From contig CANIVU010000015.1 of the NCBI GenBank assembly GCA_947470805.1, positions 1 through 64,000 of the forward strand: 64,000 nucleotides of DNA. The letters run 5' to 3'. Below are positions 13,965 through 53,731 of the stretch, one piece after another; position 1 is the first letter of the stretch; the number at the start of each line of letters is the position of its first letter. This DNA comes from Acidobacteriota bacterium (GTDB lineage: Bacteria > Acidobacteriota > Terriglobia > Bryobacterales > Bryobacteraceae). A program made the translations under genes and the position numbers. The notes under the pieces were generated by a model. It was not told where the DNA came from, ran no database searches, and saw only the letters and a list, made by a program, of their open reading frames with translations.

Positions 13965-15045
13965 GGGCAATCAGTTCCAGCAACACGCCGCCCGCCGAGG
14001 CCGGATGCACAAATACATACCGGTGGCCGCCTGCGCCGATGCGCGGTTCGCTCAACAGCCGTGCGCCAGAATCCTTCAGTGTAGCAATGGTGCCCGCGAA
14101 GTCCGGCACGCGCAGCGCCATATGGTGAATTCCGGTACCGCGTTTGGCGATGAATTTGGCGACGGTCGATTCCGGCGTCATGGCTTCCAGCAGTTCGATG
14201 CGCGATTCGCCGGCATCGAGCATGGCTACGTGGACGCCTTCGTGGGCTACGGTTTCGCGATGCACGACGCGCATGCCGAGGCCGCCCACGTAGAAGCGGA
14301 GCGACTCTTCGATGCTTTCGACGGCGATGCCCAGATGATCCACGGCGAACCCGGCCAGCGCCGCCGGTCGTTCGCGGCGGGAGACGGAGCGGATCAGTTT
14401 CAGCGCCTCGTCGGCGCCGGTGCCATCTTTGGCGACCATACGGGCGACGGGCAGGCCGGTGCCTTCGTGGAGTTCGCGTTCGGCGCGGTCGGCGCCGGGG
14501 AGGTCTGCTTTATTCAGGATCAATACGTCGGCGGCTTCGAGGAGCCCGGCCTTTTCGGCCTGGACGGAATCGCCGCCGGCGGGGGTGACGACGACTACGG
14601 TGACGTCGGCGAGGGAGGCGACATCCATCTCCTCCTGGCCGACTCCGACGGTTTCGACCAGGACCACCGGGTAGCTGTGGGCGGCCAGCAGGGACAGGAC
14701 ATCCCGCATGCGCGGGGCCAAGCCCCCGCCGTGGCCGCGGCTGGCCATTGAGCGGAAGAAGACGTTGGGCCCGGCGTTGGTCATGCGGACGCGATCGCCG
14801 AGCAGGGCGCCGCCGGTGAAGGGGGAGGAGGGGTCGACGGCGAGGACGGCGACGGGCCCTTCGATCACTCCTAGGAAAGCATCGATGACGGTGGATTTGC
14901 CGGCGCCGGGCGGGCCGGTGATGCCGATGACCAAAGCCGGCCGCGCCGCGGCTGGCGAGGGCCCACCGCGCTCGAGGGCGCTGATGGCCTGGGCGAGTGC
15001 GCGGCTCATTGGGGGACCTGCAGGTTGGGGCGACTGTGACGGCAT
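13951..15045 (-). CDS. MeaB-like GTPase fused to methylmalonyl-CoA epimerase
   Basis: A 364-residue two-domain protein. Residues about 38-225 are a G3E GTPase of the MeaB/ArgK type: G-P-P-G-A-G-K-S-T (44-52), D-P-S-S-P-F-T-G-G-A-L-L-G-D-R-V-R-M, E-T-V-G-V-G-Q (131-137) and N-K-A-D (178-181). Residues about 232-364 are a vicinal-oxygen-chelate epimerase: D-H-L-G-I-A-V (H237), G-I-H-H-M-A-L (H307/308) and L-L-E-L-I-A-H (E357) as metal ligands. MeaB protects methylmalonyl-CoA mutase and the epimerase converts its (2S)/(2R) substrates, so the fusion joins two steps of the propionyl-CoA/succinyl-CoA pathway. The GTPase is shorter than usual (MeaB is ~320 residues). A second ATG is at 15009. No mutase gene lies in the window. 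Confidence 0.88.
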
Positions 15046-15151: not shown

Positions 15152-16297
15152 TCATGTGGCCTTCAGCAGCTGCCGGGCGATCACCATTTTCTGGATCTCG
15201 CTGGTGCCTTCTCCGATGGTCATCAACTTCACGTCGCGGTAGAACTTCTCCACCGGATAATCCTTCGTAAACCCGTAGCCTCCGTGGATCTGCACGGCTT
15301 CATTGGCGGCTTTGACGGCGATCTCGGAGGCGTACAACTTGGCCATGGCCGACTCAGCATTCACCGATCGTCCCTGATCCTTCAACCAGGCCGCGCGCTG
15401 GACCAACAGGCGCGCCGCGGCGATCTCGGTGGCCATGTCGGCCAGCTTGAATTGGATGGCTTGGAAATCGGAGATCAGGCGGCCGAACTGCTTGCGCTGT
15501 TTCGAGTATTTCAGCGACGCGTCGAAGGCGCCCTGCGCGATGCCGAGCGAGAGCGCGGCGATGGAGATCCGCCCGCCATCGAGCACGCGCAACGCGTCGA
15601 CGAAGCCTTCGCCGGCGGTGCCTAGCAGCGCGTCGGCCCCGACGCGGCAATCGGTGAGGATCACCTCTCCTGTATCCGAGGCGCGCATGCCGAGCTTGTC
15701 TTCCTTCTTGCCGGGGCGGAAGCCCGGTGTGCCGGACTCCACCAGAAACGCCGAGATGCCGTGGTGGTCCTGCGCTTTATCGGTCACCGCCATCACGACG
15801 CAGAGCTGCGCGTAGTGGGCGTTGGTGGTGAAGGTTTTTGAGCCGTTCAGGATCCAGCTGTCGCCGTCGCGGACGGCGGTGGTCTTGGTGCCGCCTGCGT
15901 CGCTGCCGGCCTCGGGCTCCGTCAACGACCAACTGCCGAGCCACTCGCCGGAGGCTAGTTTCGGCAGGTATTTCTGCTTCTGCTCCGGCGTGCCGGCAAG
16001 GTAGAGATGGTTGGAACAGAGCGACGTGTGGGCGGCGACGATCAGCGCTACCGAGGGGTCGATGCGGGCGAGTTCCTCGATGACGAGCGCGTACTCGATG
16101 TAACCGTAGCCGGAGCCGCCAAGCTCTTCCGGGAAGATGGAGCCCATGAGCCCCATCTGGCCGCATTTGGCGATGACGGCGGCCGGGAAAGTGGAGTGCT
16201 CATCCCACTCGCGGACGTGCGGCAGGATCTCGGCCTCGGCGAACTCTCGTACCGCCCGCCGCAACTGCTGCTGTTCGTTCGTGTACGAGAAGTCCAT
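15152..16297 (-). CDS. Acyl-CoA dehydrogenase
   Basis: A 381-residue FAD enzyme of the usual length for short/medium-chain acyl-CoA dehydrogenases. Visible: [13 protein letters not shown] (FAD/substrate), [43 protein letters not shown], and I-G-E-G-T-S-E-I-Q with the Glu in the position of the catalytic base. It is cytoplasmic. Its place next to the GTPase-epimerase fusion suggests fatty-acid or branched-chain amino-acid breakdown leading to propionyl-CoA; the exact substrate cannot be read. Confidence 0.93.
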
Positions 16298-20687: not shown

Positions 20688-21749
20688 TTATTGACGTTTC
20701 TTCTTCCCGGTTTGTTGCGGGATTTTCGCGGGCCCCAGTGTTTTGTCGATGGCGGCTAAGGCCAATGGCGCCATGACTTTATAGCCTTCCATGTTCGGGT
20801 GGAGGCCGTCGTCGGCGAGATCTGCTTTCAATTGGCCGGTCGTGTCGACCATGGCGTCGAAGTAGTTGAGGTAGGTGAAACCGCGCTTTTGGGAGAGCGA
20901 AACCAGGTATTGATTGAGTTCGCGGATGACGCTGTTGGGGCGGCCTTTGGTCATCTCGAAGCGGGGGTTTTTGTCTTTGTGGTGATCGGAAGTGGGCAGA
21001 ATCGACGCGAAAATGACCTTGATTTGGTGCTTTTCGCAGAGATCGGCGATCATCTTGAGGTTGTTTTGGATGGTTTCGACGCTGACGCCGCGGGCGATAT
21101 CGTTCGTTCCGGCGAGGATGAGCATGGCGGCGGGTTTGTTGGCGATGACGTCGGCCTGCATGCGGCCGAGCATTTCGCCGGTGATCTGGCCGCTGATGCC
21201 GCGGTTGACGAAGTCCTTGCCGGGGAAGTACTCGTTCAGGCGCCAGCCGTCGGTGATGGAGTCGCCGAAGAACAGGACGCGCTGGGGGGTGGCGGCGGGG
21301 ACGGTTTTGTTGGCTTCGGCGTAACGGCGGAGGTTATCGCGGTCGGCGCCGCGCATTTGGATTTCGGTGGCGGTGAGCTGGGCGCGGAAGTGGATTTCGA
21401 GGCGTTCGACGGCGTCGCGGAGTTCGGTGAGCTGCTGTTTGGCGGCGGGGAGGGGCGGGAAGGACTTGGGGAGTCCGTCGGCGAGTGCGAGGTAGGATTT
21501 CGAATCAACGAGGAGGCTGTAGGCGGTGGAGATCGTCAGGCGGCCGGCGATTTTGATGGCCTTGTCGTCCTGGCGGATGTTTTCGAGCATGGGGGCGGCA
21601 GCGCGGGCGAGGCCGGGGGCGGTGACGGAGGTGGACTCGGCCAGTTGGACCATGCGTTCGCTGAGGGCGATGGCGTCGCGGGCATTGAGGAGTTCGGATT
21701 GCGCAGAGAGCGGGAGGCTGAGGGCGCAGAGGATGAGGAGTCGATTCAT
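20688..21749 (-). CDS. Exported SGNH/GDSL hydrolase
   Basis: A 353-residue protein with a signal peptide (MNRLLILCALSLPLSAQ), a ~125-residue helical N-terminal region and a C-terminal SGNH esterase domain. All four blocks are present: F-F-G-D-S-I-T-D-G-W (nucleophile Ser), N-R-G-I-S-G-Q (Gly), A-G-T-N-D-I-A (Asn) and D-D-G-L-H-P-N-M-E-G-Y (Asp/His). This fits a periplasmic lipase or carbohydrate esterase. Its ATG overlaps the stop of the DUF3108 gene (ATGA). Confidence 0.9.
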   Translation of the reverse strand: MNRLLILCALSLPLSAQSELLNARDAIALSERMVQLAESTSVTAPGLARAAAPMLENIRQDDKAIKIAGRLTISTAYSLLVDSKSYLALADGLPKSFPPLPAAKQQLTELRDAVERLEIHFRAQLTATEIQMRGADRDNLRRYAEANKTVPAATPQRVLFFGDSITDGWRLNEYFPGKDFVNRGISGQITGEMLGRMQADVIANKPAAMLILAGTNDIARGVSVETIQNNLKMIADLCEKHQIKVIFASILPTSDHHKDKNPRFEMTKGRPNSVIRELNQYLVSLSQKRGFTYLNYFDAMVDTTGQLKADLADDGLHPNMEGYKVMAPLALAAIDKTLGPAKIPQQTGKKKRQ

Positions 21750-52389: not shown

Positions 52390-52872
52390 ATGTCACCTTG
52401 GACCGACAGGGTGAGTCGCCTGGTTCTAGGAGCTGTGCTAACCGCCTGTACTGTGGGTGTGGTTCATGCGGATCCGGCGGCTTCCTCATGCGACATGGAC
52501 ACCCGATGCGTGGCGTTGCGTAACTTCTTTTTGCGCTACGAAAGCCCGCTTCACAATTTGGCGCACGTTTTCCTCCGCGCCGCCGACGCACACAAGATCG
52601 ACTGGCGTCTGCTCCCGGCTCTTTCCATCGTGGAAACCGGCGGTGGGAAAAGCGGCACGCCGTCGAACGTTTTCGGTTGGAATTCCGGCCGTACCCGATT
52701 CGCCAACGTCGAAGCGGGCATTCTCTTCGTCGCCAGCCGTTTCGCCGAATCGCCGATCTACGCCGGCCGGACCGCCATCGGCATCCTGCAGAAGTACAAT
52801 CCGGCGCGCAAGTCCTATCCGCCACGGGTTACCAAGTACATGCTGGAGATCGCCCCGCACCCGGTGGAATGA
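52390..52872 (+). CDS. Exported glucosaminidase/lytic-transglycosylase-like protein
   Basis: A 160-residue protein with a signal peptide ending near V-V-H-A-D. The core has I-D-W-R-L-L-P-A-L-S-I-V-E-T-G-G-G-K, where the Glu is in the position of the catalytic acid, followed by N-V-F-G-W-N-S-G-R-T-R-F, V-A-S-R-F-A-E-S-P-I-Y and L-Q-K-Y-N-P-A. These are typical of glucosaminidase-like peptidoglycan hydrolases. It ends 80 bp before the peptide gene; a link is possible but not shown. Confidence 0.78.
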   Translation: MSPWTDRVSRLVLGAVLTACTVGVVHADPAASSCDMDTRCVALRNFFLRYESPLHNLAHVFLRAADAHKIDWRLLPALSIVETGGGKSGTPSNVFGWNSGRTRFANVEAGILFVASRFAESPIYAGRTAIGILQKYNPARKSYPPRVTKYMLEIAPHPVE

Positions 52873-52952
52873 TTTTTTCGCTGGAGTGATACGAAATCCG
52901 TTTCTGTTCCGTTCGTCCTAGGGAAGGCACTCACTTCCTGGAGAAAACGAAC

Positions 52953-53249
52953 ATGAAACTGAAAACCTCCCTCAAAGCCGGCTACAAAGCCTGCACCCGT
53001 ACCGACGGCACCTGCACGGATTCGAACCACAACCAAGCCACAGCGCTGCGCCTGAAGACCTCCCTCAAAGCCGGAATTAAGGTCTGCACGCGCACCGACG
53101 GCACCTGTGCTGACTCCAACCACAACCAGGCCACCGCGCTTCGCCTGAAAACCTCCCTGAAAGCCGGTATCAAAGTCTGCACCCGAACGGACGGCACCTG
53201 TATGGAATCCAACCACAACCAGACCCGCTACTCCCCCACAAAAAAGTAA
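52953..53249 (+). CDS. Small repeat peptide with three Cys-containing units
   Basis: A 98-residue product without signal peptide: a two-residue start, three 31-residue units, then a short tail (S-P-T-K-K). Each unit reads L-K-T-S-L-K-A-G, two or three residues, C-T-R-T-D-G-T-C, two variable residues, S-N-H-N-Q. A ggag site lies about 9 nt before the ATG. Most differences between the units are synonymous (see findings), so the peptide is under selection. It could be a multi-unit precursor, a metal-binding protein or a secreted repeat protein. No modifying enzyme is next to it. It overlaps the convergent DUF3592 gene by 22 nt. Confidence 0.8.
   Translation: MKLKTSLKAGYKACTRTDGTCTDSNHNQATALRLKTSLKAGIKVCTRTDGTCADSNHNQATALRLKTSLKAGIKVCTRTDGTCMESNHNQTRYSPTKK
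52959..53237 (+). repeat. Three exact-length 93-bp coding repeats
   Basis: Units start at 52959, 53052 and 53145, all 93 bp apart and in frame. Conserved at protein level over 24-28 residues, variable at third codon positions. The third unit diverges after N-H-N-Q. Confidence 0.95.
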
Positions 53250-53731
53250 ACCACCGTCGCCGCCACCACCGGTACCAAACTCAATCCCAGCAGCACCACC
53301 GTCAACCACATCCCCACAAAACTCTGCTCCCCCGGCCCAGCCAGCAACACGTTGCTCGCCGGATTTCCCGGGTCGTAGAAAACCCGCACTGCAGCCCCCG
53401 CCACAAATCGCCCCGCCACCTCCCGCTGCGCCTGCTCCGAACTGGAATCTCCCTCCACCCCAAGCCGTACCCGGTCCCCCGTCCACTCCCTACCACCCAC
53501 CTCGAACCGGTACCGCACCTCCGCCGAATAGCTCACGCTTCGCTGATTATTCGTCACCTCCCGCTCCACCGTACTCGAAACAATCGTCCCCACCGCCGCC
53601 GGCCAACCCGCGCTCGCCTTGGCATTCCAATACACCGGAACCCCCAGCCACAACCCGCGCACAAACACAACGCAGAAGCCCCCAAAGACCAAATAAATCG
53701 CCAGTAATCCCCACCACGGAATCAGTCTCAT
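53228..53731 (-). CDS. DUF3592-family membrane protein
   Basis: A 167-residue protein with an N-terminal (L-L-A-I-Y-L-V-F-G-G-F-C-V-V-F) and a C-terminal transmembrane segment (L-T-V-V-L-L-G-L-S-L-V-P-V-V). The middle has V-G-T-I-V-S-S-T-V, Y-R-F-E-V-G-G-R-E-W-T-G-D-R-V and A-V-R-V-F-Y-D-P-G-N-P-A-S-N, the DUF3592 pattern. ATG at 53731 preferred; GTG at 53740 possible. It is the second family member here, clearly diverged from the one at 3985-4425. Confidence 0.78.
   Translation of the reverse strand: MRLIPWWGLLAIYLVFGGFCVVFVRGLWLGVPVYWNAKASAGWPAAVGTIVSSTVEREVTNNQRSVSYSAEVRYRFEVGGREWTGDRVRLGVEGDSSSEQAQREVAGRFVAGAAVRVFYDPGNPASNVLLAGPGEQSFVGMWLTVVLLGLSLVPVVAATVVYFFVGE

Follow-up and report, generated by a model that had tools for sequence, protein, structure and literature searches.

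The ORF at positions 52953-53249 of the window (the whole 64,000-nucleotide stretch of DNA analysed here) is a real gene of 98 codons with three units. It appears to encode a polyprotein of exported short peptides that is cut after KAG by a dedicated C39-ABC exporter encoded elsewhere, a reading to which we give a probability of about 0.72. Each unit would open with a 10-residue recognition element, [M/L]xxK[ST]x[VLI]KAG, to be bound by the C39 peptidase domain of the dedicated ABC exporter, and the predicted partners of the exporter are an HlyD adaptor, a second ABC protein and a TPR protein. The chain would be cut after KAG and the core exported; with KAG as the sole cut, the inner fragments would keep the recognition part of the next unit. 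The cores, here with a Cys-x6-Cys pair and NHNQ, would be the products, short peptides that probably serve as extracellular signals or weapons between cells. One exporter may serve many scattered precursor genes, with processing in trans. The observations behind this reading are a peptide family with constant flanks and variable cores, exporter linkage at some loci and co-occurrence across genomes, aligned C39 residues, and a common upstream element. Because the exporter of the window's genome lies on a different contig and the ORF lacks the shared element, the link of this ORF to the exporter rests on homology.

The three-unit gene and its reading frame

The features of the gene are as follows.

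52953..53249, + strand: precursor ORF, 98 aa, three tandem units (from the sequence, paralogues and dN/dS)
52940..52943, + strand: Shine-Dalgarno-like GGAG, read directly; similar sites at tiny relatives
52953..52982, + strand: unit 1 leader MKLKTSLKAG, with putative cleavage after G; a like 10-residue leader opens relatives of 16-23 aa
52953..53045, + strand: unit 1, 31 codons, core YKACTRTDGTCTDS, then NHNQ
53046..53138, + strand: unit 2, 31 codons, recognition LRLKTSLKAG, core IKVCTRTDGTCADS, then NHNQ
53139..53228, + strand: unit 3, recognition LRLKTSLKAG, core IKVCTRTDGTCMES, NHNQ, TR
53229..53246, + strand: C-terminal tail YSPTKK

The ORF starts with ATG, nine bases downstream of the GGAG. 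Its units are 31, 31 and about 30 residues long, and each contains L-K-T-S-L-K-A-G, C-x6-C and S-N-H-N-Q, so that the three-unit Cys-peptide gene proposed here by the first-pass annotation agrees with direct reading in coordinates, motifs and units. Units 1 and 2 differ over 31 codons by 10 synonymous and 5 replacement codons, of which two, M/L and K/R, lie at the unit boundary, leaving 3; units 2 and 3 differ up to NHNQ by 9 synonymous and 2 replacement codons. The annotation's own counts (11 and 3, 8 and 2) were slightly off, but the mostly synonymous pattern that it described holds. Nei-Gojobori dN/dS is 0.094 for units 1 and 2, 0.084 for units 2 and 3 and 0.235 for units 1 and 3. The annotation had named a lack of homologues outside the strain and a dN/dS near 1 as evidence against its proposal of a maintained repeated peptide (a multi-core precursor or a secreted repeat peptide); homologues exist, dN/dS is 0.08-0.24, and the proposal is well supported.

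One antisense frame over the ORF likewise has most of the changes at third positions. The sense frame is taken as the real one because the relatives are proteins read in that frame from start codons, and Shine-Dalgarno sites precede those that were checked. An antisense open frame of 223 codons (window 52815-53486, - strand) spans the ORF and is taken as a by-product. Scanning the ORF and family representatives against Pfam and NCBIfam gave no match at cut-off. A CIDE-N match (22.2 bits against a cut-off of 23.5) is sub-threshold and taken as chance, as are the remaining weak family-scan matches of precursors and neighbours.

A family with constant flanks and variable cores

The window's genome (G000) is a draft of 8.7 Mb in 220 contigs with an estimated contamination of 3.1%. 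A unit profile at E<=0.01 matches 38 places in it, 3 of them inside ORF 52953-53249, and since similar units also occur in other genomes, the three-unit ORF is beyond chance. A protein search followed by a unit-alignment search placed further family genes on contigs C33, C171, C95, C75, C18, C188, C100, C127, C1 and C141, with four genes in a row on C33 and six units in the gene on C171. They have K[ST]x[VLI]KAG and NHNQ or a close form in common (KATG/KAAG on C141), and the stretch between KAG and NHNQ may be as short as a few residues or form a loop with Cys. The usual unit is K[ST]x[VLI]KAG, a variable core, then NHNQ. The first-pass annotation had associated K-T-x-x-K-A-G...N-H-N-Q with other small bacterial peptides, and in substance this was right.

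Extraction from the collected precursors, which missed at least 2 of the C33 genes, gave 51 distinct ORFs with one to 15 units each, 185 units in all and 150 distinct cores. Because the extraction pattern fixed or limited the flanks, only the variety of the cores is informative in these units. Six core positions were measured for entropy; four have 3.4-3.9 bits, and the first two have 1.65 and 2.99. Some core has a Cys in 5 of the 51 ORFs, and so do two C33 genes missed by the extraction. The Cys pair of ORF 52953-53249 is a local variant, and the metal binder that had also been suggested is not supported as a family trait.

At E<=0.01 the unit matches 8 of the 101 genomes of the same family (G000 included), with 73 matches in G058. 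A DNA-pattern scan of named genomes found precursors in Acidobacteriota titled Bryobacterales, Paludibaculum and gp1, and in the Myxococcota Myxococcales 68-20 and Labilithrix. It returned 42 stretches, 26 of which are precursors (19 in genomes already examined, 7 new); 16 were rejected, seven having the motif in frame without a second unit or leader context and nine lacking it in frame. A first DNA pattern was discarded as too loose (72 matches against 76 for the reversed control). The A2 profile, a strict one, matched 2 of 396 genomes over the phylum and found a four-unit precursor in G424. Plasmids and phages searched with one precursor gave no precursor match. The sole occurrence of NHNQ as a whole word in the literature searched is unrelated, and the titles and abstract starts listed showed nothing recognisable as the K[ST]x[VLI]KAG/NHNQ family.

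Tiny leader peptides

Some relatives, of only 16 codons, pair the same leader of 10 residues with a core that has Trp close to its end. Leader ORFs of 16-17 codons such as MKVRSNVKAGMAVWGD occur in G013, G034, G050, G083, G088 and G093. G064 has MKIKSKIKAGDEGFKITWGT three times plus one variant, in G021 MKAKTKVKAG occurs twice, followed by a core that ends in NHNTVVR or similar, and G028 has five tandem genes of the tiny leader kind. Shine-Dalgarno sites are present at the tiny ORFs examined. Predicted C39 substrates are MKVRSNVKAGMAVWGD, MKTNTTALVVRTAVKAGAYKLRGSLQ and any one unit of ORF 52953-53249.

Weak matches were controlled at E<=1, where some match is present in all 8 of the exporter-positive genomes and in 6 of the 12 that are exporter-negative. 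The best match of four of these six lies inside frames of 390-850 codons, and those of G011 (LRMKTRCKAGS) and G018 have no ATG or Shine-Dalgarno site at the leader.

The C39-peptidase ABC exporter

An HlyD protein, an ABC transporter with an N-terminal C39 peptidase domain and a second ABC protein adjoin precursors at loci L087 and L092 of two genomes of the family, as identified by family scans. Clustering and inspection by eye place the same set beside precursors at L136 (a gp1 acidobacterium) and L120 (Myxococcota). TPR proteins are neighbours at L087, L092, L119 and L120, and by eye at L156. The first-pass annotation had suggested looking near homologues for a shared modifying enzyme or exporter: no such enzyme was found at the ORFs examined, and the exporter was. 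The C39-ABCs of these four loci have 50-59% identity to the first. Alignment to PCAT1 pairs the catalytic Cys, His and Asp with the same residues. The catalytic Cys and His of PCAT1 are named in PMC6959990.

On contig C127 of the window's genome the exporter gene lies at 16162, two precursors lie at 14634 and 14796, and a weaker precursor lies at 21332. The C127 set comprises a sigma factor, a kinase, a TPR protein, two tiny precursors, the HlyD protein, the C39-ABC, the second ABC and the weaker precursor-like ORF. Between the TPR protein and the tiny precursors lies an ORF of 650 aa (L099 7556-9508), which by its look may be CotH-like. Among the largest 14 recurring clusters of 16 exporter loci, ABC proteins occur at 16 loci, HlyD at 12, TPR at 6, a kinase at 4 and a sigma factor at 3; two further clusters, at 4 and 3 loci, were without identity, and several of the 14 are antisense artefacts. 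A related C39 exporter lies on the Piscinibacter gummiphilus plasmid NZ_CP136338.1 (L191, 1032-9221) together with a DUF692 protein and a MoeB-annotated protein. The same region holds an ORF of 57 aa with KAKVNVKLG that may be a modified relative.

Co-occurrence of exporter and leader peptides

A C39 profile at E<=1e-5 matches 20 of the 101 family genomes. Fifteen were counted as having the exporter subtype, 14 with 245-319 bits and G050, whose match is cut by a contig end; five genomes with matches of 29-43 bits were dropped as carrying other C39 transporters. The unit matches 8 of the 101 genomes and the exporter 15, with an overlap of 7 (Fisher p=2.8e-6, or p=0.004 once the four genomes represented in the alignment are left out). 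Small leader ORFs are present in every one of the 8 genomes that have the exporter and no unit match. It had been predicted beforehand that divergent precursors would adjoin the exporter, which held in 2 of these 8 (G021 and G034); in the other 6 they are elsewhere.

A profile of the tiny peptides, at a limit of E<=0.02 that was chosen after the table was seen, matches 14 of the 15 genomes with the exporter and 1 of the remaining 86 (p=4e-15); leaving out the 7 genomes whose sequences built the profile, the figures are 7 of 8 against 1 of 86 (p=6e-9). At E<=0.5 it matches 33 of 101 genomes, many of them by chance. G049 (84% complete) and G075 (72% complete) have leader peptides, yet no exporter match; the tiny-peptide matches of G075 are on its contigs C90, C14 and C33.

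In a draw of 396 genomes from the phylum the exporter is present in 10, that is, in 9 besides G000. A relaxed leader scan outside the family found 5 ORFs at 4 of the 9 exporter loci (164,397 bases). The control, of 181,594 bases, gave 2, one at L135 and one at L217, whose genome is itself exporter-positive. One leader ORF outside the family is a precursor of four units with QHNK, another is a peptide of 28 aa that has both Trp and NHNE, and five of the 9 loci have no leader ORF nearby by the relaxed pattern. A strict scan matched at 1 of the 9 loci and gave 3 matches in 210,095 control bases, among which L100 and L216 are a true precursor and a candidate.

A shared upstream element

Several precursor genes share a common upstream element. 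The pattern TGATCAAATCC-N8-CCTTCGCTGAG is common to seven in G000, four on C33 and one each on C171, C95 and C75, its start lying 50-92 bases upstream of the ATG. If up to 3 mismatches are allowed, it has 13 sites in G000 (L256-L268), 12 of them before leader peptides, and the reversed pattern has none. Five of the six sites not used for its derivation precede leader peptides, namely the known gene on C18, a tandem group of three on C106 and a single gene on C161; the four genes on C106 and C161 are new, being absent from the protein-search lists. No leader-peptide gene was seen after the site at C29:27273, and ORF 52953-53249 has no close copy of the element, that is, no site within 3 mismatches.

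The core AYKLRGSLQ is encoded on both C106 and C161, by DNA that differs at five codons, all of them synonymous; the leaders in front of it differ before VKAG. Since the core is kept through synonymous change, it may well be the selected product, with KAG as its border. The sigma-54 consensus was found 4 times upstream of precursors against a shuffled mean of 1.7 and maximum of 5, which is no clear enrichment.

Comparison with known systems

The predicted system resembles that of the double-glycine PCAT peptides (PCAT1/CtA, ComA/ComC, LahT) in having a C39-ABC partner and a short leader ending in Gly. The known C39 leader consensus is L(-12)xxxE(-8)L(-7)xxxxG(-2)G(-1) in an excerpt of PMC6959990, and L(-12), E(-8) and L(-7) are also given in an excerpt of PMC6363468. 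The proposed cut site reads AG in 174 of the 185 extracted units, with a further G in 133 of the 185, where the double-glycine criterion is Gly-Gly, Gly-Ala or Gly-Ser. The extraction pattern fixed -7 to K or R, and these units are therefore no test of Leu(-7). In 21 tiny leaders position -7 is K (14), R (2), N (2), T (2) or E (1) and never Leu, -8 is V, T, I or A, and there is no position -12. Because they lack L(-12), E(-8) and L(-7), the tiny leaders are not filed as canonical double-glycine peptides; the hydrophobic -4 alone fits, and only if the cut is after KAG. Unlike the known system, there is a leader of about 10 residues in tiny genes, with no Leu at -7 and no -12, there are up to 15 tandem units per ORF, and the genes are scattered over the genome. 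The leader peptides appear to work like double-glycine peptides, but they fail that leader consensus.

HetC of Nostoc is a PCAT that has been suggested to export regulatory peptides such as PatS; PMC10986499 reports no leader-bearing gene near hetC and calls it open where the HetC substrate is encoded. HetC is similar as a Gram-negative PCAT with suspected small peptide substrates that are not necessarily encoded beside it; the system described here differs in that its likely substrates can be told by the leader they have in common. NHLP/NHLM bacteriocin export (TIGR03794, TIGR03796, TIGR03797) also combines HlyD, a C39-ABC and a second ABC. The L087 and L092 exporters, in contrast, score 165 and 198 bits against a cut-off of 853 for TIGR03796 and 61 and 54 bits against 156 for TIGR03794, and the scanned precursors have no family match.

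The ends of the tiny W-type cores resemble that of the ComX decapeptide of the Bacillus pheromones. Leader, exporter and neighbours differ here, and the likeness of the core ends is probably only convergent. In layout the precursors are similar to yeast prepro-alpha-factor, in which one ORF carries several near-identical short peptides, each behind a processing site; the processing machinery differs, and the system here is bacterial.

Alternative explanations

That the ORF is a selfish or degenerate repeat without a peptide product is highly improbable. Such a repeat could be dispersed and patchy with a variable copy number, as the units are, but it would not be expected to have a low dN/dS, Shine-Dalgarno sites at the tiny ORFs examined, a core kept through synonymous change and co-occurrence with an exporter. 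A cytoplasmic or structural repeat protein that is neither exported nor processed, such as a metal-binding Cys repeat, is very unlikely: there are two Cys per unit here and Cys also in C33 cores, but only 5 of the 51 ORFs extracted have Cys in a core, a repeat protein cannot be formed by relatives of 16 residues, and the exporter co-occurrence also argues against it. It is possible, if at less than even odds, that the ORF is a multi-core RiPP precursor, whose cores would be modified before export (e.g. at NHNQ, Trp or Cys) by an unlinked enzyme that uses the KAG element as its recognition site; this is compatible with export and cutting as a polyprotein. The repeated recognition-core units with variable cores and a recurrent NHNQ, several cores to a precursor, are consistent with it, as is the Piscinibacter plasmid, where the exporter shares one region with the DUF692 (MNIO) protein and the KAKVNVKLG ORF. 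No known RiPP enzyme, however, was found at six ORFs of the exporter locus in the window's genome or at five neighbours of ORF 52953-53249, and none was identified among the largest 14 recurring clusters of the 16 exporter loci.

More doubtful, and likewise compatible with the polyprotein reading, is that the peptides are signals for adjacent transmembrane Ser/Thr kinases, which would phosphorylate and activate adjacent ECF sigma factors, with the precursors in the regulated set. In G058 at least 10 of 15 precursor contigs have a Ser/Thr kinase within 5 kb (94 of 99 matches used) and 10 of 15 have a TIGR02999 ECF sigma factor within the same distance. About 9% and 4% would be expected, figures that are rough, being derived from counts and genome length. 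In G000 a kinase and a sigma factor are near the C33 precursors, and within about 10 kb at C127. In the ten kinases checked a hydrophobic segment follows the kinase domain, starting at residue 354-409. The eight sigma factors checked carry a QPTA or QATA motif that resembles the QTTA of ECF43. In ECF43 sigma factors the Thr of QTTA is phosphorylated and the factor is activated by a partner kinase, according to an excerpt of PMC13147305. FHA-sigma54 activators also adjoin tiny ORFs of G034 and G093. But kinases of this type are common (57 and 99 matches), C33 is the single one of 11 precursor contigs in the window's genome to have the pair within 5 kb, neither protein is at the locus of ORF 52953-53249, and the sigma-54 consensus is not clearly enriched upstream of precursors. 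The kinase and sigma factor neighbourhood is treated as a lead.

These two activators have an FHA-GAF-sigma54 architecture and lie directly beside the 16-codon genes of G093 (L211 3081-4997) and G034 (L214 3401-5329). By eye, an ORF with a similar start is seen at L092 10944, near the G073 precursor.

Implications

To our knowledge, little is known of secreted peptides in Acidobacteriota. A leader rule of approximately [KR]x[KRNT][ST]x[VI]KAG with the exporter as a marker makes such peptide sets findable and yields exact predicted peptides, which is useful because genes of 16-26 codons easily escape annotation. If the polyprotein reading is true, a PCAT may manage with a leader far shorter than the known consensus and handle many substrates whose genes are unlinked to it. 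Tentatively, the scattered minigenes and polyproteins, dozens to a genome and recognisable by the 10-residue leader, could together be a peptide language of Acidobacteriota and Myxococcota not recognised before: different short peptides, exported by one C39 exporter, in many cases expressed under a shared promoter, and sensed through Ser/Thr kinase and ECF sigma (or FHA) proteins whose genes adjoin some of them.
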